From IMG/VR virus record IMGVR_UViG_3300031565_000486, positions 1-20,331 of that record: a DNA stretch of 20,331 nt; one strand, given 5' to 3'. Shown here piece after piece: positions 538 to 9,572 of the stretch (its first letter is position 1; each line of letters begins with the position of its first letter). Position numbers and translations under genes: made by a program. This DNA is from a virus. A model generated the notes under the pieces. The model was given only the letters and a program-made list of their open reading frames with translations. It did no database searches and had not been told where the DNA came from.

Positions 538-801
538 ATGGAAATTAAGGATTGTGCAGTATTTAGTTTAGAAAAAGAAGATAAGAAAGACGATGATTTG
601 CTTATTGCGGTTTTTCCAAATGAAGAGTCAGATGATGGTTTCGTTATAAGTCTTAAAGAACTTTGTCTTTTTGAAATTCGTTCTTCTAAAATTTTTGATG
701 GAACAATGGAAAAGGAAGACATCTTAGAATTAGAAGGCGTTTCAAGGAAACTCAAATTATTAGCAAAAATCATTGATGATGAAATCGAAAAAAAATTGTA
801 A
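538..801 (+). CDS. Small acidic protein of unknown function between terS and terL
   Basis: An 87-aa protein I do not recognise. It is rich in Asp, Glu and Lys, with many phenylalanines and leucines, has no signal peptide or membrane segment, and ends in a helical, probably coiled region (LELEGVSRKLKLLAKIIDDEI). The start at ATG 538 is set by a strong AAGGAGGGG ribosome site at 525-533; the frame is open further upstream (from 466) but that part only overlaps terS in another frame. The coding sequence is clearly more AT-rich than terS and the terL exteins, which suggests later acquisition. Its last 26 bases overlap the start of terL in another frame. It could be a small packaging accessory factor or an unrelated cargo gene; the sequence does not decide. 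Confidence 0.7.
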   Translation: MEIKDCAVFSLEKEDKKDDDLLIAVFPNEESDDGFVISLKELCLFEIRSSKIFDGTMEKEDILELEGVSRKLKLLAKIIDDEIEKKL

Positions 802-3800
802 GCCTAAACCTAAAAACGGCGTAACGCAAGAGGATATTGACCGGATAGAATCCATCGTCAAGGGATATATGGCTGATGTGAAGTCCGGTAAGGTGTTAGC
901 TTGCAGGTTCGTTAAGTTAGCAGTTGATCGCCAAGAGAGAGACTTAAAAGAGGGTCCAGCGCGAAGCCTGGAATTTAATAAATATATGGCAGCTCGGGCC
1001 GTTAAGTTCTTCTCATTCCTGAAATTGTGGAAGGGCAAGGAATACAAGGGAAAAGAATTTATCCTTGGGCCGCATCGTGCCTTTTTTACTTGGGTTTTGA
1101 TGGGGTGGTACCGCGCAGACGGGACTCGACGCTTTAGGATGGCCTATGATGAGGAAGCTAGGAAGGGTGCGAAAGCCGAATGGATTGAAAACGAGATCCC
1201 AACACCAGATGGATTCAAAAGAATGGCCGATATTCACCCCGGCGATTATGTTTTTGGTTCTTCTGGAAAGCCCATAATGGTGATCGATGAGACAGAGACC
1301 ATGAACGGCAAAGACTGCATGGCTGTTTCCTTTTCTACTGGGGAAAAGATAATCGTCTCAGAAAATCATTTATGGGAGGTAAACAGAAATATTGAGCCGG
1401 AAAATAATCACCGAACATGGACACAAGAGGAAGATGGATTAATAAGACGAAAATATCCAACGGGCGGGTTGAACGCGCTTCAAGGGAAATTGCCGCACAG
1501 AAGCCGTTATGCGATAGCAAAAAGGACAGAATCCCTTGGTATTAAAAAGAAAGATGGGTGCCATAACAGAAGTATTGCCAAACTTAATGTCCCAAGAGTT
1601 TTTTCAATGCCAGAACCGCCAAGAGTTCTTAGCACAAGGATCATCTCAGAGACTTTAAGATATGGATCAAGACAAGATCTTCGGTATTCAATAAATGTTG
1701 CACCTGCCATTATAACGGAATCAAAAGCATTGCCAATCCCCCCATATTTTCTTGGTGTATGGCTGGGCGATGGTGAGAGTAAATCATCAAGAATAACTAT
1801 CGGATATGAAGATCTTGCCATTATTGAAAGGATAAGAGAAGAGGGACTCCTGGTAGAAGAAAGGAAGTCAAGCAATGTTGGCAGTGGGTTGTTTTATGTT
1901 CATACCGGTGACAAGAAAGCAAATATTAGGGGAAGATTGAACGCAATAGGGGTACTCAGCAATAAACATATTCCCCGAATGTATTTTCGCGCTGAATATA
2001 ATCAGCGGATCACGTTGCTCAACGGACTTATGGATTCAGATGGTCATGCGGATAAGCGCGGTCATTGCTCTTTCACTAATTGCAATAAAACGTTAGCGCA
2101 TAATGTCATGGAATTGTTGGCTACGCTTGGGATTAAGGCAACAATAAATGCACGGATGGCTAAATTGTATGGTCGTTGCATCCGAGATGCTTATAAAGTT
2201 GATTTTGTTCCCGCAGCTGGGATACAGATTTTTAATCTCAAGCGGAAGCAAGACAAAATTAAAGCACGAACAAAAAAAACTCGATTTGATACTAGAATGA
2301 TAACGTCTGTTGAATGCGTTCCGTCTGTTCCGGTAAGGTGCATAACCGTTGATTCCCCAGATGGACTATATCTTACTGGCAAGAGCTTTATTCCAACTCA
2401 CAATAGCACTTATGCCGGGGGCCTTGGTTCATACTTTTTTGTCGCTGATGGGGAGCAAGGTGCGGAAATATATTGTGCTGCAGTAAAGCGAGAGCAGGCC
2501 CGTATAGTCTGGCAAAATATCAAAAATCTTCTCAAGACTTCTGGGTTTGCTGATAAAGTTACATTTCTGACACATAATCTATCAATTGAATCAACAAATT
2601 CAAAGTGTGAACCGCTTGCCAGCGATTCAAAAAGCCTTGATGGACTCGATACCCATTTCGCCAGCCTTGATGAACTCCATGCACATCCGACACGAGAAGT
2701 TTATGACCTTATAGTTGATTCTATCGGCGCTCGTTCACAACCCCTTATCCTGATTATCACCACCTCCGGCTTTAACCAGACCGGGATATGTTATGAGATG
2801 CGAGAATATCTAACGCAAATTCTGAAGAATACGATCCAGGATGATTCATTTTTCGGGATTATCTTTACCCTGGACACCAAAAAGGACTGGCCGGATCTCA
2901 AAGATAAGAAAGAGAAGCTCAGGAAAGGCCAGCAGAGAGAAGACGACTGGACAAATGAAGATGTTTGGGTAAAGGCGGCTCCCGGGCTCCTCGGCATAAC
3001 AGAAAGTGGAAAGCGATTCGGGATTGACGACAAAGGACAGCCGATACCGGGCTACATGACAAAACTAGAAGATATGAGAGATAAGTGCCGGATCGCAAAG
3101 CAGATGCCGAGTGCCCAGAATAACTTCTTGACTAAAAGATTGAACATTTGGTGTGTCATTGGTTCAACCTTGATTCTCATGGCTGACGGCTCACGAAAAA
3201 GGGCGGATGCGGTAAAGATTGGTGACTTGATTGTCAGTTTCGATGAGAAAACCCGAAAACTGAAGCGCTCGAAAATAACAGGGGTATATGACAATGGCGT
3301 TCATGATGTAGTAACAATAACGACCGTTCGGGGCCGGGAAATTACAACTACGTTAAATCATCCATTTTGGACAAGGACCGATAGATGGAGGCGAGAAAAA
3401 AGCGATTGGATTCTTGCCGGAAATCTTAAAATGGGTGACAAAATAGGAGTTGCTTTAAATTACCAAACTAAAGAGGGGGGAAGGCGTTTAAATAGAGAGA
3501 AAGCTCAATTTATTGGGATAATGGTTGGGGATGGTAGTTGCCATACAATGCCACGGCTTACGAATACCGATAGCGGAGTAATTGAATTTTGTTCTAAATT
3601 TGCCAAAAAGAATAAATGCACACTTGACCCTTTGCCAGATGGGTATCATTGGGATTTTCACCATGCGGATAAAGTGGCGAAGTCGCTTAAAATGAAACCT
3701 ATAAAAAGATTACTGAAGAAATATAGAGTATGGGGAAAAGATGATAGCACAAAGAGAGTACCCGATGCTATTTTTAAGGGAGGACGGCCTGCCTGGATAG

Positions 3801-4954
3801 GGTTTCTATCGGGCTATATTGATACGGATGGGCACATAGCGAAAACAGGAATTATAATCGCTAGTTGCAATAAAGAACTGCTCATGGATTGTCAAGACCT
3901 GATCGCACTTTTAGGGGCGCAATCCATCGTTAAGCAGATTCAGGGTGGAACTTATCACCTTGGAATCTTTGATAGTAAAAGCCTAAAGCTTATGGCCAAG
4001 TTGTTAACCCTTTCTCATACAAAGAAAAACCGAGAATTAGAAAAGTTTAGGGGGTTTATTCTCAGTTATGATTATGCCACCAATTTTGATGCGATCAAAA
4101 GTATCAAATATCCTGGCCAGACCGCGACTATAGGAATTGAGATTGAGGACACTCATACACATATCACAAACGGGTTGATTACTCATAATACCCAGCAAGA
4201 AAACAGGTGGTTAGATCTTGCCCTTTGGGATCAGAATAATATCCGGCCTGTAACCGAGGCAACCTGCGCCAGCCGTACTTGTTACGGTGGCATTGACCTT
4301 TCTGCCGTGTCCGACCTTACCGTCTGGGTAATGCTATTCCCGGATACTGAAGATAAAGACCTGCTTGACATCTTGATCCGGGTATGGTGCCCGGAGGCGC
4401 GGCTATTTGATACCAGAAACAAATACCGCGAGCAATACCAGGCATGGAAGAAACGGGGATACCTGATTACCACAGAAGGCGATGCTATGGATTACGATTT
4501 TATCCGAGCGCAGATCGCTGGATCCACCGATAAGGATGGAAAATATGTGCCGGGAGATAAAGACCGATTTGACATACAGAGCATTTCCGTTGACCGCGGC
4601 TTTCAAGGGTATGAGTTTTCGCAAAAGCTAGATCAGGAGCTTGGTGGTGATGAGAAGAACCCGAAGGTTATCGCTTGTGGTATGGGATGGGTCTCAATGA
4701 ATGGCCCGTGCCAGGAGGTTGAAAGGCTATTGCTATTGAAGAAGTTAAACCATGGCGGCAACCCTATCCTCCGGTGGATGGCCGATAACGTAGCAGTAAA
4801 AATCAATCCCACTGGTGGCGGGAAGTCACCGAATAAAGCTACCAGCCAGGGCAAGATAGATGGAATCATCGGGATCCTGCTCGGGCTGGATAGGAAGCTG
4901 AGGATAAGAGAAGAGACCGGCAACATCTATGACCAATATAACCTTGTAAGGTAA
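776..4954 (+). CDS. terL: Terminase large subunit (Terminase_1/HK97 type) precursor with two inteins
   Basis: This is the packaging motor ATPase and headful/cos nuclease, made as a 1392-aa precursor. Removing the two inteins (residues 134-543 and 793-1138) leaves a 636-aa protein typical of Terminase_1. The rejoined P-loop reads EEARKGAK/STYAGGLG; Walker B is FASLDELHAH with Asp-Glu near nt 2669; ITTSGFNQTG follows as the coupling motif. The nuclease half starts after NFLTKRLNIW/TQQENRWLDL and has the acidic motif YGGIDLSAVSDLT, SVDRGFQGYEF and a C-terminal KIDGIIGILLGL. TTG at 773 is followed by ATG at 776 and 779; I take 776, but the ribosome site is weak (AGGAA, more than 20 nt upstream) and translation may be coupled to the overlapping upstream gene. 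Without both splicing reactions neither the ATP site nor the ATPase-nuclease linker would be intact, so packaging should depend on splicing. Confidence 0.95.
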   Translation: MMKSKKNCKPKPKNGVTQEDIDRIESIVKGYMADVKSGKVLACRFVKLAVDRQERDLKEGPARSLEFNKYMAARAVKFFSFLKLWKGKEYKGKEFILGPHRAFFTWVLMGWYRADGTRRFRMAYDEEARKGAKAEWIENEIPTPDGFKRMADIHPGDYVFGSSGKPIMVIDETETMNGKDCMAVSFSTGEKIIVSENHLWEVNRNIEPENNHRTWTQEEDGLIRRKYPTGGLNALQGKLPHRSRYAIAKRTESLGIKKKDGCHNRSIAKLNVPRVFSMPEPPRVLSTRIISETLRYGSRQDLRYSINVAPAIITESKALPIPPYFLGVWLGDGESKSSRITIGYEDLAIIERIREEGLLVEERKSSNVGSGLFYVHTGDKKANIRGRLNAIGVLSNKHIPRMYFRAEYNQRITLLNGLMDSDGHADKRGHCSFTNCNKTLAHNVMELLATLGIKATINARMAKLYGRCIRDAYKVDFVPAAGIQIFNLKRKQDKIKARTKKTRFDTRMITSVECVPSVPVRCITVDSPDGLYLTGKSFIPTHNSTYAGGLGSYFFVADGEQGAEIYCAAVKREQARIVWQNIKNLLKTSGFADKVTFLTHNLSIESTNSKCEPLASDSKSLDGLDTHFASLDELHAHPTREVYDLIVDSIGARSQPLILIITTSGFNQTGICYEMREYLTQILKNTIQDDSFFGIIFTLDTKKDWPDLKDKKEKLRKGQQREDDWTNEDVWVKAAPGLLGITESGKRFGIDDKGQPIPGYMTKLEDMRDKCRIAKQMPSAQNNFLTKRLNIWCVIGSTLILMADGSRKRADAVKIGDLIVSFDEKTRKLKRSKITGVYDNGVHDVVTITTVRGREITTTLNHPFWTRTDRWRREKSDWILAGNLKMGDKIGVALNYQTKEGGRRLNREKAQFIGIMVGDGSCHTMPRLTNTDSGVIEFCSKFAKKNKCTLDPLPDGYHWDFHHADKVAKSLKMKPIKRLLKKYRVWGKDDSTKRVPDAIFKGGRPAWIGFLSGYIDTDGHIAKTGIIIASCNKELLMDCQDLIALLGAQSIVKQIQGGTYHLGIFDSKSLKLMAKLLTLSHTKKNRELEKFRGFILSYDYATNFDAIKSIKYPGQTATIGIEIEDTHTHITNGLITHNTQQENRWLDLALWDQNNIRPVTEATCASRTCYGGIDLSAVSDLTVWVMLFPDTEDKDLLDILIRVWCPEARLFDTRNKYREQYQAWKKRGYLITTEGDAMDYDFIRAQIAGSTDKDGKYVPGDKDRFDIQSISVDRGFQGYEFSQKLDQELGGDEKNPKVIACGMGWVSMNGPCQEVERLLLLKKLNHGGNPILRWMADNVAVKINPTGGGKSPNKATSQGKIDGIIGILLGLDRKLRIREETGNIYDQYNLVR
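1175..2404 (+). mobile_element. Intein 1 in the terL P-loop: class 3 intein with SANT-like insert and LAGLIDADG endonuclease
   Basis: A 410-aa protein-splicing element between Lys and Ser of the Walker A motif (ARKGAK/ST). It begins AEWIENEIPTPDGF, so residue 1 is Ala, not Cys or Ser. It has the class 3 'WCT' set: Trp67 in block B (SENHLWEV), Cys389 in block F (VRCITVDS) and Thr408 in block G, followed by His409-Asn410, with Ser as +1. In class 3 inteins the block F Cys does the first attack, so the missing Cys1 does not mean it is dead. Between block B and the nuclease, nt about 1412-1549 encode a Myb/SANT-like DNA-binding segment (WTQEEDGLIRRKYPTGG, then LPHRSRYAIAKR). The homing nuclease has both LAGLIDADG helices with acidic residues kept: FLGVWLGDGE and LLNGLMDSDGH. 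The block is somewhat AT-richer than the exteins, as expected for a mobile insert. Confidence 0.93.
3152..4189 (+). mobile_element. Intein 2 at the terL ATPase/nuclease boundary: class 1 intein with LAGLIDADG endonuclease
   Basis: A 346-aa element between Trp792 and Thr1139 of the precursor (RLNIW/TQQENRW). It follows class 1 rules: Cys1 in block A (CVIGSTLILMADG), a block B TxxH in TTTLNHPFW with His70, block F IGIEIEDTHTHI, and a C-terminal Thr344-His345-Asn346 followed by Thr +1. The central homing endonuclease has two intact LAGLIDADG motifs, FIGIMVGDGS and FLSGYIDTDGH, so nuclease activity is plausible. The two inteins share only general family features and use different chemistry, so they look like independent invasions, not a duplication. 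Exact ends follow from reconstructing the conserved terminase junctions. Confidence 0.95.
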
Positions 4955-4957
4955 ATA

Positions 4958-5143
4958 ATGACCAGCCTACCCAATAAACCACTTTTACGAGTCGATGAAG
5001 TCGCGAGGTATTTTTCTGTCTCTAAAAGAACTATCTATCGTTGGATTGAGAACAAAAAACTAGATAGCCGGAAGATTTCTCGAAACGTCATCAGAATAAC
5101 CCACGAATCAATCGAAACCTGCCATTTTCAAAAACAAGCCTAA
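4958..5143 (+). CDS. Excisionase-like helix-turn-helix DNA-binding protein
   Basis: A 61-aa protein that is almost entirely one HTH_17/excisionase-type (MerR-like) domain: LLRVDEVARYFSVSKRTIYR is the helix-turn-helix, followed by WIENKKLDSRKI and an ISRNVIRITHESIE wing and helix. The ATG at 4958 lies 3 nt after the terL stop. No recombinase is encoded nearby, so a regulatory role is more likely than excision. Directly downstream lie 10-bp direct repeats (5158-5193) abutting a candidate promoter (5197-5224), which makes this protein the obvious candidate to bind them. That link is inference; the fold assignment is firm. Confidence 0.85.
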   Translation: MTSLPNKPLLRVDEVARYFSVSKRTIYRWIENKKLDSRKISRNVIRITHESIETCHFQKQA

Positions 5144-5157
5144 AAAAAACTGTGACG

Positions 5158-5193
5158 CCAGTAGACACCAGTGTACTCCAGTGTACTCCAGTG
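5158..5193 (+). repeat. 10-bp direct repeats (CCAGTGTACT), about 3.6 copies, upstream of a promoter
   Basis: The units are CCAGTAGACA, CCAGTGTACT, CCAGTGTACT and a final partial CCAGTG. The CCAGT core therefore recurs every 10 bp, close to one DNA turn, so a protein bound to each unit would line up on one face of the helix. The array ends 3 bp before the -35 element of the candidate promoter and starts 14 bp after the HTH gene. It lies outside any gene. A regulator-binding (operator or activator) array is the best reading; there are no spacers, so it is not a CRISPR. Confidence 0.75.
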
Positions 5194-5196
5194 CCC

Positions 5197-5224
5197 TTGA
5201 CTATCTTTTTTTTCTCTTCATAAT
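5197..5224 (+). promoter_or_regulatory. Candidate sigma70-type promoter for the portal-capsid operon
   Basis: TTGACT at 5197-5202 and CATAAT at 5219-5224 are separated by 16 bp; each differs from consensus at one position. Transcription would start near 5231, about 50 nt before the small membrane protein gene and ahead of portal, protease and capsid genes. The -35 element directly follows the 10-bp repeats, an activator-like arrangement. Seen from sequence only. Confidence 0.6.
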
Positions 5225-5282
5225 TATAGCTACATAGTTTTGAACTTACATCATACAACTGATATGAAGGGTTACTGTATGA

Positions 5283-5453
5283 ATGAGTAAACTCTCAGGT
5301 TCAATTAAATCTATTCTAGGGGTGCGGGAAGTTTTAATGATTATAGGCCTTGGCTTAGTTGCCTATGGCTTATATCTCTTTGTGCCATGGGTATCATACT
5401 CTGTGACCGGCTGCTTTTTGATGGCAGGCGGTTTTTTTTTAAGGGATGAGTGA
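5283..5453 (+). CDS. Small two-helix membrane protein upstream of the portal gene
   Basis: A 56-aa protein with a short basic N-terminus (MSKLSGSIKSILGVREV) and two adjoining hydrophobic stretches (LMIIGLGLVAYGLYLFVPW and VTGCFLMAGGFFL), ending in RDE. ATG 5283 is preceded by AAGGG about 11-12 nt upstream. Its stop (5451-5453) overlaps the portal ATG (5453) by one base, so it is probably translationally coupled to the portal gene. Small hydrophobic genes at this site are common in phages, but I cannot assign a function; a holin-like role is possible but unsupported. A terminator-like hairpin lies inside its 3' end, so its translation may affect transcription into the portal gene. Confidence 0.75.
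   Translation: MSKLSGSIKSILGVREVLMIIGLGLVAYGLYLFVPWVSYSVTGCFLMAGGFFLRDE
5407..5440 (+). terminator. Terminator-like hairpin plus T9 inside the end of the small membrane protein gene
   Basis: CCGGCTGC (5407-5414) pairs with GCAGGCGG (5424-5431) over 7 of 8 positions (one G-G mismatch), with a 9-nt loop, and is followed at once by nine T (5432-5440). This is the layout of an intrinsic terminator, yet it lies within a coding frame and upstream of the portal gene. It may limit readthrough from terL or act as a translation-sensitive attenuator. It could also be just the coding of a Gly-Gly-Phe-Phe stretch. Confidence 0.5.
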
Positions 5454-6733
5454 TGGGCTTTTTGCGCGGACTACGGCCAAAAGCCATGGACAGCGACGAA
5501 CTCGCCAGACTTATCGGCTCGGTTTATGGCGGTGGATCCACCTCGACAGGGATTTCCGTTAATACCGATTCGGCGATGAGAGCGATAAGCGTCCATACCT
5601 GCGTGAAGGCGAAGTCGAACGGTATCAGGATGATGCCTTGTCATCTTATGCAGAAGATGGAGACCGGCATTGATGGTATTCAAAACGTAAGGCAGGCAAC
5701 GGAGCATAATGTTTACCGCTTGCTACATGACCAGCCAAACAGTTGGATGACGCCCGCCGAATTTTGGGGGATGGCATCGGCTTGCTTGGATCTCCGGGGT
5801 AATTTCTTCGCATTTAAAAGCGGTTTACCCAATCGCTCAGTGAGAGAACTTATCCCCCTGGCCATCGGATCAGTAGAGGAAGTTATCCAGACCCCTGATT
5901 ATGGTCTATTTTACAAAGTCAGGCGACCAACCGCTGATAGTGGAACCATTGACATCATTCCCGGTAACCGGATTATGCATATACGTGGACTTACTTTAGA
6001 TGGTTTTATGGGTTTGAATCCTATCGCTTATGCTAGGGAGAGCATTGGCTTAGAGCTAGCTACCGAGAAGCACGGCGCAAAGCTATTCGGCCATGGGACT
6101 ATGATCGGCGGGGTTTTAACTATGCCGCACGGTCAATTCTTCAAAGATCGTGATCAAGCAAAGAAATTTCTGGATGATTTTAACGATACTTATTCCTCAG
6201 TCGAAAATGCTCATCGAACTGCCCTCCTCGAAAACGGAGTGACTTGGGCAAAGATGGCAATGACTTCGGTTGATAGCCAATTTCTTGAAGCTCGCCGTTT
6301 TCAGCATCGGCAGATAGTTGACCTCTTTTTTAGCATCCCCTTATCGATCATGACTTCAGAAGACAAGACGGCGACATTTGCCAGCTCTGAGCAATTCAGC
6401 ATCGCGTATGTGATCTATGCTCTTATGCCTTATATCGTCAATATTGAGCAGGCGATTTATAGGGATTTGCTGACAGAAGAGGAAAAAGAAACGAAAAGCT
6501 ATTATGCGAAATTTGAAGCGCGAGCACTTCTCCGAGGATCATTCAAGGAACAGATGGATAGCTTCTCTATCGCAATTGATAAAGAGATTTTCAATCCAAA
6601 TGAAGTACGGGCGCTCCTTGAATATAACCCATATCTTGGCGGGCAGATCTATCGCACTAGGACTAGCACAACCAAAGATACCGGGAAAGAGGCTAATGGG
6701 CGACCGAAAATCGTGCCAAAGGCGGAAGGATAG
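5453..6733 (+). CDS. Portal protein (HK97-type, phage_portal family)
   Basis: The 426-aa dodecameric portal forms the single capsid vertex through which DNA is packaged and to which neck and tail attach. Family marks are the N-terminal GISVNTDSAMRAISVHTCVK block, LMQKMETG then HNVYRLLHDQPNSWMT, a WGMASACLDLRGNFFAF segment, IMHIRGLTLDGFMGLNPI (the loop where HK97-type portals read i.Hi....dg..G.SPi), and the late SIPLSIMTSEDKTATFASSEQF region. Length fits the family. I place the start at ATG 5453, not GTG 5450, because the TGATG overlap with the preceding gene gives coupling and AAGGGATG is 7-12 nt upstream. The Lys/Glu-rich C-terminus is normal. The gene lies immediately before the prohead protease, the classic order. 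Confidence 0.95.
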   Translation: MGFLRGLRPKAMDSDELARLIGSVYGGGSTSTGISVNTDSAMRAISVHTCVKAKSNGIRMMPCHLMQKMETGIDGIQNVRQATEHNVYRLLHDQPNSWMTPAEFWGMASACLDLRGNFFAFKSGLPNRSVRELIPLAIGSVEEVIQTPDYGLFYKVRRPTADSGTIDIIPGNRIMHIRGLTLDGFMGLNPIAYARESIGLELATEKHGAKLFGHGTMIGGVLTMPHGQFFKDRDQAKKFLDDFNDTYSSVENAHRTALLENGVTWAKMAMTSVDSQFLEARRFQHRQIVDLFFSIPLSIMTSEDKTATFASSEQFSIAYVIYALMPYIVNIEQAIYRDLLTEEEKETKSYYAKFEARALLRGSFKEQMDSFSIAIDKEIFNPNEVRALLEYNPYLGGQIYRTRTSTTKDTGKEANGRPKIVPKAEG

Positions 6734-6778
6734 AACAGCCCTTTCAACCGGCACTTGCTATTTGAGGAGGTAATAAAA

Positions 6779-7612
6779 ATGAAACTGGCATATCGAAATA
6801 AAAAAAACGCGCGTGCTATTTCTGCTTTCTGGGGGAAATCATTAGACAAACCTGATTGGTATTCAATCAAATCGCTCTCTGAAGATGAAGCGGAGATTTT
6901 AATCTATGGTGTAATAGGCTTTCCTTTCAATGATGCCGGAGAAATTGTTCGGACCCTTGCAGAAATGAATCAGAAAACCATCTTGATTCGGATTAACTCA
7001 CCTGGCGGAGATGTTTTTGATAGTGTCGCCATTTTTAATGTTTTGCAATCTCACAAGTCGAAAATCATCACCCGTATTGAATCACTTGCAGCCTCTTCTG
7101 CTTCATTTATTGCCCTAGCTGGTAAAGAAGTCCAGGCCTATAAAAATGCGATGATGATGATCCATAATCCCTGGGTTTTTGCTATAGGGGATCAAAATGA
7201 TTTGCGGGATATAGCTGATGTATTAGAGAAAATCTCCGGAAACATGGTGGATATTTATTCTGATAATTCAAGCGTTGGCAAAAAAGAAATCAAGGAAATG
7301 ATGAAGGCCGAGACCTGGATGACTGCTAAGGAGGCCAAAGAAAAAGGATTCATTGATACGATCCTAGACGGCAAGGGGGCCAAGGCCCAGTTTGACTTGT
7401 CGATGTTCGCCAATGCCCCGGAGGATTTCCGAGGCGAGGAACACGAGATAACTGAAAGAGAATTAGAAAAAGAACTGCAGAAAATGGGAATTTCTCAAAG
7501 CAGGGCAAAACGCATGATTTCTATCGGTAAGGATGACGAAGAAAACAATATCAATGAAATTGCAGCTCAACTTAAAAAAGCCACTTCAATCCTTAGAGGA
7601 GAAAAGAATTGA
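6779..7612 (+). CDS. ClpP-like prohead (capsid maturation) protease
   Basis: A 277-aa serine protease of the ClpP/crotonase fold, expected to trim the capsid protein's N-terminal delta domain and itself during maturation. Core motifs: INSPGGDVFDS (the Gly-Gly turn), LAASSASFIALAG with nucleophile Ser106 (or Ser107), and MMMIHNPW with His129; an Asp after about residue 150 should complete the triad. ATG 6779 has GAGGAGG 8-9 nt upstream. After the catalytic domain a charged tail carries a motif ELEKELQKMGISQSRAK (nt 7460-7510) that recurs in the next two genes. The stop overlaps the next gene's start (ATTGA-type 4-nt overlap, 7609-7612). Confidence 0.92.
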   Translation: MKLAYRNKKNARAISAFWGKSLDKPDWYSIKSLSEDEAEILIYGVIGFPFNDAGEIVRTLAEMNQKTILIRINSPGGDVFDSVAIFNVLQSHKSKIITRIESLAASSASFIALAGKEVQAYKNAMMMIHNPWVFAIGDQNDLRDIADVLEKISGNMVDIYSDNSSVGKKEIKEMMKAETWMTAKEAKEKGFIDTILDGKGAKAQFDLSMFANAPEDFRGEEHEITERELEKELQKMGISQSRAKRMISIGKDDEENNINEIAAQLKKATSILRGEKN

Positions 7613-8151
7613 TTTATTTTTTGTCCATTTTAGACAGCGAATTTATAAAGATAGGATTTACAAGCCAAGATATAGAGAGAAGAAAATCAGCTCTTCAAAC
7701 GGGCAATTCGTACGAAATCCATATACTGCATACCACTGATGGATCAATGCAAGAAGAAAAAGAAATACATAGATGCCTGAAAGAAGTTTTTGAAAGATTG
7801 CAAGTATTTAATAATCCAATAAATGAATGGTATCCGGGAAACAATCCGATTATCAAAACATTTATAGGTAATGTCAAGAATCATGGAATTGCTTATTCAC
7901 TTGAAAATCTCAACAGTATTGTACGATGGGACTTAAGAATTAAAGAGGATCAGATTTTTACAGTAAGGCATCTTGAGAGGTGTTTGCGCAGAAACGGCCT
8001 ATCTAGGGGAGAGGCAAAAACATTAATTTCAAAAAGCAAAGTCGAGTTAAACGATCTCTTTGTTTTGAATACAGGAAGGCAATCTGGCACAGATGATAAG
8101 CCACAAAATATAGGCCGCACAGTGATTTTAAGGAAAGCGCAAAATGCGTAA
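7609..8151 (+). CDS. GIY-YIG nuclease domain protein (T5orf172/MUG113-like) within the capsid operon
   Basis: A 180-aa protein. Residues 1-85 match the T5orf172 subset of GIY-YIG nucleases: MIYFLSILDSEFIKIGFTSQ gives the IY...IKIG core, then IERRKSALQTGNSY, an EEKEIHRCLKE helix and a closing NEWYPG. Such genes in phage structural operons are usually free-standing homing endonucleases. It starts with TTG at 7609 overlapping the protease stop, with GAGGAGAA just upstream, and is AT-richer than its neighbours, as an invader would be. The C-terminal half is not part of the nuclease; it includes HLERCLRRNGLSRGEAK (nt 7969-8019), matching the tail motif of the protease and the following small protein. 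That may be a captured piece of the capsid operon or a DNA-binding helix pair. Activity is not provable from sequence. Confidence 0.82.
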   Translation: MIYFLSILDSEFIKIGFTSQDIERRKSALQTGNSYEIHILHTTDGSMQEEKEIHRCLKEVFERLQVFNNPINEWYPGNNPIIKTFIGNVKNHGIAYSLENLNSIVRWDLRIKEDQIFTVRHLERCLRRNGLSRGEAKTLISKSKVELNDLFVLNTGRQSGTDDKPQNIGRTVILRKAQNA

Positions 8152-8169
8152 TACAATGACGGTCAAATT

Positions 8170-8361
8170 ATGATGATGACCAGTTTTGATATTGAAAGAA
8201 TCCTTAGGGACGCTGGTGCTCCTAAGGCATTCGCGAGAGCGGTAGCGGCGGCATGCCGTGCCGCAGGGTTATTTGATCGGTGTCAAGCCGACATAGACCT
8301 AGAGATTGAAGAGCTGAAAAACATACTAACATCGATCATATCGAAAATTAAGGAGGAATAA
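8170..8361 (+). CDS. Small helical protein carrying the protease-tail motif, just before the capsid gene
   Basis: A 63-aa (or 61-aa) protein with three stacked possible ATG starts at 8170, 8173 and 8176. It opens with FDIERILRDAGAPKAFARAV, a version of the LExxLRxxGxSxxxA motif in the tails of the protease and the GIY-YIG protein, and ends in an acidic helix (IDLEIEELKNILTSIISKI). The stop at 8359-8361 overlaps the capsid ATG (TAATG). Because the motif normally sits at the end of prohead proteases in related phages (from memory of the family), this may be a detached protease tail or small scaffold-like factor. No catalytic residues are visible. Confidence 0.75.
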   Translation: MMMTSFDIERILRDAGAPKAFARAVAAACRAAGLFDRCQADIDLEIEELKNILTSIISKIKEE

Positions 8362-9572
8362 TGATGGAGGAATTAAAGAGACTTATAGAAGCCATGGGAA
8401 GGGCATTCGAGGAATTTAAAATGGCCAATGATGCCCGGATCAAGGCAATCGAAGCTAAAGGCCATGCAGATCCGCTTCTAGTGGAGAAGGTCGAAAGGAT
8501 CAATGCGGACCTTACGGCAATGTCTGCCATGAAACAACAATTAGAAGCACTAGAAACCATTGTGGCTCGCGGGCAGTTTCCCGGAGGCGGAGTGCCGAAT
8601 CAGGATGCCGTCAATAGAGTTAAGGCATTTAATCACCTCATGCGGAAAGGCGGCAAAAGTATCAAGGATCTTGATATTCAAGCAGCAGCCTCAACACTTT
8701 CAGATCCCGATGGCGGATTTACCGTACCGGAAGAAGTCGAGACAGCAATTGACCGTGTTGCAAAAATCGTATCTGCAATGCGGAGACTTTGTACTGTACG
8801 GCCAATATCAACAGATACCTATCGTAAGCTCGTCAATCAGGGTGGAGCGACTTCTGGGTGGGTAGCAGAGAAGGCATCTAGGGCAGCAACTACGACCCCG
8901 ACCCTTGCTGAAATCTCAATTAATACGAAAGAGGTTTATGCCATGCCAGCAGCCACGCAATCACTTCTGGATGATAGTGCCATTGATATCGGTCAATGGT
9001 TAGCTGACGAGGTCTCTATTGAGTTCACCGAAGAAGAAGGTGATGCTTTCATCACCGGCACTGGAGTTTCAGAGCCCAAGGGCATAGCCGCCTATACAAT
9101 GGTTGCTAATGCCTCCTATGCTTGGGGTAGCGTTGGTTATATTGCCGGGGGTCATGCTTCGCTGCTTAATAATGCAGATAAGCTGATTGACCTTCAGCAT
9201 GCGCTGAAACCCGTTTATCGCGGAGGTTCCGCATTTCTGATGAATGATTTGACAATGGCAGTTGTTAGAAAATTCAAGGATGGTGAGGGGAACTATCTCT
9301 GGAGGCCAGGTCTTGAGCAAGGCGCACCTGATACGCTATTGGGAAAGCCGGTCGAGATCGATGACAATGTTGCCGATATCGGTGCAGGTAAATATCCGGT
9401 CTTCTTTGCGAACTTCAAGCGAGCGTACATGATTATCGACAGGATTGGGATACGGGTTTTGAGAGATCCCTATACCAGCAAACCGTTCGTCCTCTTCTAT
9501 ACCACCAAAAAAGTTGGCGGCGGAATAGTCCACTATGAGGCGATTAAGGCTCTCAAGATTGCTACAACCTAA
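8361..9572 (+). CDS. Major capsid protein, HK97 fold
   Basis: A 403-aa shell protein of the phage_capsid family. Residues 1-72 form a charged coiled-coil (EELKRLIEAMGRAFEEFK onward), the HK97 delta domain that acts as internal scaffold and is cut off by the protease. The fold proper starts around residue 110 (STLSDPDGGFTVPEEVETAI), followed by TSGWVAEKAS, PTLAEISINTKEVYAMPAAT, an FITGTGVSEPKGIAAY loop and the C-terminal GKPVEIDDNV/IDRIGIRVLRDPY/GGGIVHYEAIKALK blocks typical of this family. ATG occurs at 8361 and 8364; AGGAGG at 8351-8356 is 4 and 7 nt away, so 8364 may be the real start. The maturation cleavage site probably lies between residues 72 and 110. Confidence 0.96.
   Translation: MMEELKRLIEAMGRAFEEFKMANDARIKAIEAKGHADPLLVEKVERINADLTAMSAMKQQLEALETIVARGQFPGGGVPNQDAVNRVKAFNHLMRKGGKSIKDLDIQAAASTLSDPDGGFTVPEEVETAIDRVAKIVSAMRRLCTVRPISTDTYRKLVNQGGATSGWVAEKASRAATTTPTLAEISINTKEVYAMPAATQSLLDDSAIDIGQWLADEVSIEFTEEEGDAFITGTGVSEPKGIAAYTMVANASYAWGSVGYIAGGHASLLNNADKLIDLQHALKPVYRGGSAFLMNDLTMAVVRKFKDGEGNYLWRPGLEQGAPDTLLGKPVEIDDNVADIGAGKYPVFFANFKRAYMIIDRIGIRVLRDPYTSKPFVLFYTTKKVGGGIVHYEAIKALKIATT

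Follow-up and report, generated by a model that had tools for sequence, protein, structure and literature searches.

A tiny HTH gene followed by one-turn repeats at the start of the head genes looks like a recurring regulatory switch in many uncultivated bacterial viruses

Introduction

What does a gene for a 61-aa HTH protein do between the terminase and portal genes of a virus, where it is followed by direct repeats one helical turn apart and by a promoter? The arrangement lies in the 20,331-base virus contig IMGVR_UViG_3300031565_000486, which was analysed at its full length and is called the window here. Known cases of late head-gene control in phages are few and rely on antiterminators or activators such as Q, Ogr and RinA. 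If the reading that we favour is true, it adds a very small and portable type of such control and explains why the annotation 'excisionase-like' is common without a nearby recombinase. According to this reading, an excisionase/BldC-like protein probably coats the array and controls the portal-capsid promoter.

The binding mode itself is known. Excerpts of PMC7498355 and PMC5859096 describe head-to-tail stacking on direct repeats one helical turn apart, both for excisionases (lambda Xis, 186 Apl) and for BldC. Apl of coliphage 186 binds in a strongly cooperative manner to direct repeats spaced by 10-11 bp, and it acts as a promoter regulator (PMC7498355, excerpt). BldC of Streptomyces is a 68-aa winged HTH protein without a dimerization domain, each monomer of which sits on a 9-bp direct repeat in head-to-tail order; on longer sites it forms a coat or filament with one monomer per turn (PMC5859096, excerpt).

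Results and Discussion

Genes, array and promoter in the window

All genes of the window described here lie on the + strand. The gene for the small terminase subunit (48-521, phrog_83) is followed by that for the large subunit, TerL (773-4954), recognized by TerL_ATPase, TerL_nuclease, intein and LAGLIDADG domains. TerL contains two inteins with LAGLIDADG-type domains, one within the ATPase part and the other ahead of the nuclease part; the TerL of one relative (L002) has an intein-like insertion, too. The HTH gene (4958-5143), classified as HTH_17 (excisionase/BldC-like winged helix) by Pfam, PHROG and predicted fold, starts with an ATG 3 bases past the stop of TerL, its upstream neighbour in the same direction, with which it may be co-transcribed. 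Beyond array and promoter, the presumed regulated operon begins with the gene for a 56-aa membrane protein (5283-5453, phrog_502), followed by the genes for the portal protein (5450-6733, domain match), a ClpP-like head maturation protease (6755-7612) and the major capsid protein (8361-9572), the last two with domain and PHROG matches. A phrog_502 membrane protein of 50-70 aa recurs between promoter and portal in many relatives. Between the protease and capsid genes lies a GIY-YIG/MUG113-like frame (7609-8151; domain and PHROG match), probably a homing endonuclease.

The CCAGT cores of the array start at 5158, 5168, 5178 and 5188 on the + strand. They belong to the direct repeats CCAGTAGACA (5158-5167), CCAGTGTACT (5168-5177) and again CCAGTGTACT (5178-5187), and to a fourth unit consisting of the core CCAGTG only (5188-5193). 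TRF reported 5168-5193 with period 10, 2.6 copies and 100% match. When extended to 5154, the array reaches 22 in local self-match scoring at lag 10, more than any other site of the window at lags 8-14, whereas 60 first-order Markov copies of the window reached a maximum of 13 at lags 9-11. An RNA element at this place is unlikely, because the transcript of 5141-5285 folds no better than shuffles (z -0.49) and a comparison of the window with Rfam gave no match.

Three bases (5194-5196) separate the last CCAGTG from a predicted -35 hexamer, TTGACT (5197-5202), which a 16-bp spacer joins to a predicted -10 hexamer, CATAAT (5219-5224), both on the + strand. The initial annotation had described CCAGT cores every 10 bp, 3 bp before TTGACT-16-CATAAT, and was correct in coordinates and spacing. 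It had also placed an excisionase-like HTH gene just upstream of the repeats, which is borne out by the HTH_17 match (E 1.6e-11), and had claimed that a recombinase is absent nearby; in agreement with this, searches for tyrosine integrase and serine resolvase matched neither in the window record, which may be a fragment.

By itself the window promoter is unremarkable, as 40 promoter-like sites were found in the window and 39.0 expected. It gains weight because promoter-like sites follow arrays in relatives, which supports the position of the -35 hexamer: using a weight matrix of hexamer frequencies, the best promoter scores just past arrays had a mean z of 0.92 against shuffles (n=35), compared with -0.12 (n=34) in the control. 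CATAAT was also found after the arrays of L115, L188, L196, L197, L226 and L231. The array-to-promoter distance ranges from -2 to 55 bp among relatives; distances to the -35 hexamer form apparent clusters, but the array ends are ill-defined. In an unbiased promoter search over 27 loci, the array preceded the best promoter in 17, overlapped it in five and followed it in another five; random placement would put 47% of arrays upstream, so that the excess is weak. Promoter strength did not differ between HTH-less loci (7) and loci with HTH gene and array (27; p 0.50), and hence gives no sign for activation or repression.

The protein resembles excisionases and BldC

The best PHROG for the 61-aa protein is 'excisionase and transcriptional regulator' (E 8.3e-08); weak matches to terminase small subunits were found as well. 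When the family profile was compared with PDB sequences, Pukovnik Xis of a mycobacteriophage came first (E 3.5e-09), and BldC, an HTH_17/MerR-like protein, was also matched (E 5e-06). The predicted model (pLDDT 84.5) comprises a strand (9-11), helices 12-19 and 23-31, a hairpin (37-48) and a helix (49-54). Its top fold matches (TMq) are Pukovnik Xis (0.76-0.77), BldC (0.70-0.71), RacA (0.60-0.70) and RdfS (0.63-0.64). The protein thus has the build of BldC, i.e. a winged HTH without a coiled-coil dimerization domain in a class of about 60-70 aa.

Among 61 family proteins, the position matching the base-reading Arg30 of BldC varies (L36 R11 G6), while Glu14 (61/61), Trp29 (60/61) and Thr25 (58/61) are conserved. 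This pattern fits a constant spacing with changing repeats, though the conserved positions may serve only the fold. The window residues L9, E14, F19, V21 and W29 match Leu11, Glu16, Phe21, Val23 and Trp31 of the BldC interface, and these, too, may be conserved for the fold alone. The salt-bridge residue Arg22 of BldC corresponds to S20, at a position that is not conserved (S24 G13 D11 of 61).

GenBank phages gave no match to the HTH proteins of the window and of L036; a match in Pseudoalteromonas phage PY6 was rejected as a portal-side relative, since it adjoins a putative integrase and not a portal gene. The HTH protein of L026 matched 57 GenBank phage records, 56 of them mycobacteriophages, and those listed are mostly annotated as excise/excisionase or HTH protein. 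A search of 84,980 species genomes with the HTH pattern matched no relative, and a portal search of genomes led to a single Deltaproteobacteria MAG contig, which does not suffice to assign a host. In L057 (2721-3180), two HTH_17 domains stand in tandem within a single frame.

One-turn repeats recur next to the HTH gene

To collect relatives, we used the HTH protein, alignments of such proteins and portal sequences as queries against viral contigs, and added one genome contig and one GenBank phage. Altogether 304 loci were gathered, L001 being the window itself and many being the same contig fetched again. The 236 HTH hits (loci and window) correspond to 96 non-redundant proteins, 65 of which are encoded no more than 700 nt ahead of a portal hit. 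We used the 61 with an HTH score above 50 bits; L073, L206, L193 and L259 were dropped for low scores (29-36 bits), and L009 was left out, as its HTH frame runs into other sequence. The hypothesis was formed by eye, from other 10-bp repeats that the first relatives carry at the corresponding position. For each locus, ungapped self-matches per lag were then counted in 88 nt, beginning 5 nt before the HTH stop, and compared with dinucleotide shuffles.

In the 60 non-redundant HTH-portal loci without the window, the excess at lag 10 is pronounced (z = 23.5), with smaller values at lag 20 (z = 7.5) and lag 9 (z = 4.3) and |z| of at most 3.2 at the remaining lags between 4 and 30. With the 31 loci that were added once the hypothesis stood, we obtained z = 17.2 at lag 10, 9.0 at lag 20 and only 0.8 at lag 9. 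Control stretches of the same length yielded lag-10 values of 1.5 (inside the HTH gene) and 3.2 (the next 88 nt), and 24 HTH hits without a portal within 700 nt gave 2.9. Shared ancestry can inflate such z values, but the repeat units differ widely. Whereas the spacing of 9-11 bp persists, the unit changes from CCAGTGTACT in the window to TTTAGCACCA (L188), TTTCCTAATT (L205), GAAGTTTGCA (L184), TGACAAATTA (L115), GTTAACTTCC (L003), TAACGTAAGC (L085), ATCCGCGTCT (L048), TACGCCTGAG (L053) and others. Of 35 array loci, 33 have the start of the array no more than 35 nt past the HTH stop.

Taken singly, 27 of the 61 loci have an array at p <= 0.05, 20 at p <= 0.01 and 12 at the floor of 0.001; the other 34 have no individually significant array, and L030, L218 and L103 are among those scoring as chance. 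Relatives that keep the HTH gene without repeats had been named as an observation that would speak against a functional pair. The outcome is divided: at portal-adjacent loci, repeats accompany the gene far beyond chance, but fewer than half of these loci stand out on their own. In whole-record scans, the array after the HTH gene was the top site in three of five records (G002, 39 kb; G003, 48 kb; G013, 12 kb), though not in G001 and G010; in those three records there is therefore no second array of equal strength that would hint at a wider regulon.

Repeats and protein may change together among close relatives

Over all 35 loci with an array score of at least 7, a Mantel test showed no significant correlation between HTH identity and array similarity (rho 0.05, p 0.23). 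In the 34 pairs whose HTH proteins are at least 55% identical, however, the arrays are more alike than expected (permutation p 0.0004), whereas the DNA 25 nt beyond the array is not (p 0.40). The thresholds were picked after the global test had failed; at 50% or more (87 pairs) the array likeness gave p 0.004, and at 60% or more (15 pairs) p 0.002, with p 0.07 for the flank. Array orientation is not strictly kept, as L278 and L184 match best on opposite strands (0.85).

Portal loci that have no HTH gene mostly have no array either. Eight hand-picked portal relatives without the HTH gene (L005, L015, L016, L018, L081, L082, L083, L090) have no array at p <= 0.05 (0/8). We relied on these because an earlier set of 54 'no HTH' loci (lag-10 z 1.2) holds, by eye, other HTH types and displaced arrays. 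Three further loci were kept out of the eight: L025, whose HTH gene lies roughly 900 nt upstream, L099, where the upstream gene is not an HTH gene and the array has p 0.069, and L027, which runs against the pattern with an array but no adjacent HTH gene. Since the portals of L005 and L081 rank with those closest to the window portal (73% and 75%), the cassette appears and disappears even among closely related phages.

What the array may do

The repeats could be functionless products of chance or slippage, and slippage can indeed produce short tandem repeats, a significant array being missing at many loci. Yet the excess is limited to lags 9-10 (with the harmonic at 20) and to the DNA past the HTH gene, no other lag of the 60 loci stands out, the repeat sequence differs by lineage, and the units have diverged within arrays, unlike those of fresh slippage; we find this explanation scarcely credible. 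Another view takes the protein for a true excisionase and the array for part of an attachment site, with incidental transcriptional control. The nearest relatives in sequence and fold are excisionases, the small winged HTH has the HTH_17/Xis fold by sequence and model, and the direct repeats, as putative binding sites about one helical turn apart, resemble excisionase sites as an excerpt of PMC7498355 presents them. On the other hand, a partner integrase together with an attachment site was not found in these possibly incomplete records: among 20 relative records (12-56 kb) that may be fragments, a tyrosine integrase is absent from 16 and present in four, and a serine resolvase occurs in none of the 20, nor in the window. 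Moreover, dozens of lineages have the pair at this same position, next to a promoter and flanked by the terminase and portal genes. Since the records may be fragments, the excisionase view is only weakened, but we hold it to be unlikely.

The location between terminase and portal genes would also suit a packaging (pac/cos) or replication site with the HTH protein as packaging helper. Some packaging proteins have similar HTH folds, and there are weak matches to RppC in the PDB (E 0.075) and to the terminase-small-subunit PHROGs mentioned above. A separate small terminase subunit exists in the window, however, and HTH gene and array are both missing from related phages whose portal is of the same kind, although a packaging site should be universal; this makes the proposal very unlikely in our judgement. 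Alternatively, the array might be an insulator, at which a filament blocks read-through from the terminase operon and does not act on the head promoter. Filament-forming proteins could serve as such roadblocks, and the close succession of HTH stop and array would suit this role, but the window array adjoins the -35 hexamer, which suggests promoter control, and we consider an insulator improbable.

We thus return to the excisionase/BldC-type winged-helix protein as a regulator of the head operon, to which, judging from the position of the array, control of the portal, protease and capsid genes would fall. The protein would be made from the terminase transcript, and its monomers would line up head to tail on a single face of the neighbouring 10-bp direct repeats, with one monomer for each helical turn. 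The short cooperative filament formed in this way would have its downstream end at the -35 hexamer of the promoter from which the membrane protein, portal, protease and capsid genes are presumed to be transcribed. Such cooperativity would set a sharp threshold, so that the head promoter would change its state once enough product of the terminase operon is present. Stacking on one DNA face, as proposed in the initial annotation, agrees with the predicted fold and with what has been published on excisionases and BldC, and the binding mode is put forward by analogy to these. The known relatives offer both signs: Apl and BldC are repressors, and the filament-forming RdfS acts as an activator at some promoters and as an attenuator at another (PMC11963761, excerpt). 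We give activation by contact at the -35 hexamer about an even chance and slightly prefer it to repression by spreading onto the promoter, which is a little less probable; the position of the array slightly favours activation.

Each of the known systems shares part of this arrangement. Like the window protein, Apl and the P2-family Cox proteins are small HTH phage proteins with direct repeats 10-11 bp apart; these recombination directionality factors bind cooperatively, spread and control the promoter beside the repeats (PMC7498355, excerpt), which we assume here by analogy. They act, however, at early lysis-lysogeny promoters and at att sites with an integrase, whereas here the promoter is that of a head operon, usually without a recombinase in the record. 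BldC is a chromosomal developmental regulator whose salt-bridge Arg22 is not conserved in the phage family and whose 9-bp AATTnnnnC motif is not used by the phage arrays, although they, too, offer 9-10 bp direct repeats beside a predicted promoter. The mycobacteriophage matches listed are presumed excisionases encoded mid-genome on the minus strand and were not seen as a portal-promoter cassette. Also an HTH_17 winged-helix protein, RdfS of ICEMlSymR7A differs by an extra N-terminal helix, an integrase partner and the lack of a consensus repeat. In a limited word-based search of the literature we found no description of a recurrent HTH-array pair at phage head operons. The earlier statement that the arrangement lacks a standard description thus holds for the genomic place and fails for the binding mode, which is that of lambda Xis, 186 Apl and BldC (PMC7498355 and PMC5859096, excerpts). 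What is new is the apparent repeated use of this mode at phage head operons, mostly in records in which no recombinase was found.

As the spacing is constant and the repeat sequence varies by lineage, there would be dozens of natural protein-operator pairs from which the DNA choice of winged-helix proteins could be read. Such pairs could serve synthetic biology as orthogonal cooperative switches.

Other HTH types and further arrays

In a diverged second HTH type (L008, L010, L084, L154, L298-L304), 8 of the 11 rows examined carry arrays of 10 or 11 bp at p <= 0.01, and two of these eight are contigs fetched twice (L298 = L008, L299 = L010); against the pattern, L300, L302 and L304 have no significant array. 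In L154, an extra small gene lies between HTH gene and array. Arrays also follow small genes in L092 and L107 (11 bp) and in L110 (9 bp). These genes may be further HTH types, although the resemblance was judged by eye only: in Pfam, L092 had no match and L110 had HTH matches below the threshold.

Taken together with the main family, these loci would fit a widespread, exchangeable late-gene cassette, in which an excisionase/BldC-like protein encoded between terminase and portal polymerises on a fast-changing phased array and times head-gene transcription. It would comprise at least two HTH types, possibly three or four, in the same place and with the same one-turn spacing, and protein-array pairs would therefore be swapped or lost as units. 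For this broader proposal, the chances of being right and wrong seem to us equal.

Several minor observations concern single loci. L092 (-190 to -120 upstream of the portal) and L107 carry five to six GTACC units 10-11 bp apart (scores 21 and 28, p 0.001), perhaps another protein-array pair with the small gene. In L027 (3622-3710), four TTTCC units 10 bp apart lie ahead of a TTGACA promoter with no HTH gene adjacent; the partner of this array may be elsewhere. L016, a phage without the HTH gene, has a direct repeat of longer period (TTGTATCGTTAAAATAGT / TTGTATCATTTTAATAGT) past the promoter at about 2590-2660. Finally, arrays were found within predicted frames at two loci, a long G-rich 10-bp array of GGCGAGGCATGG-like units in L314 (2979-3084, score 38) and GC-rich 10- and 11-bp tandem arrays of ACGCGTGG units in L307 (4634-4697), which comes from the same record as L205.
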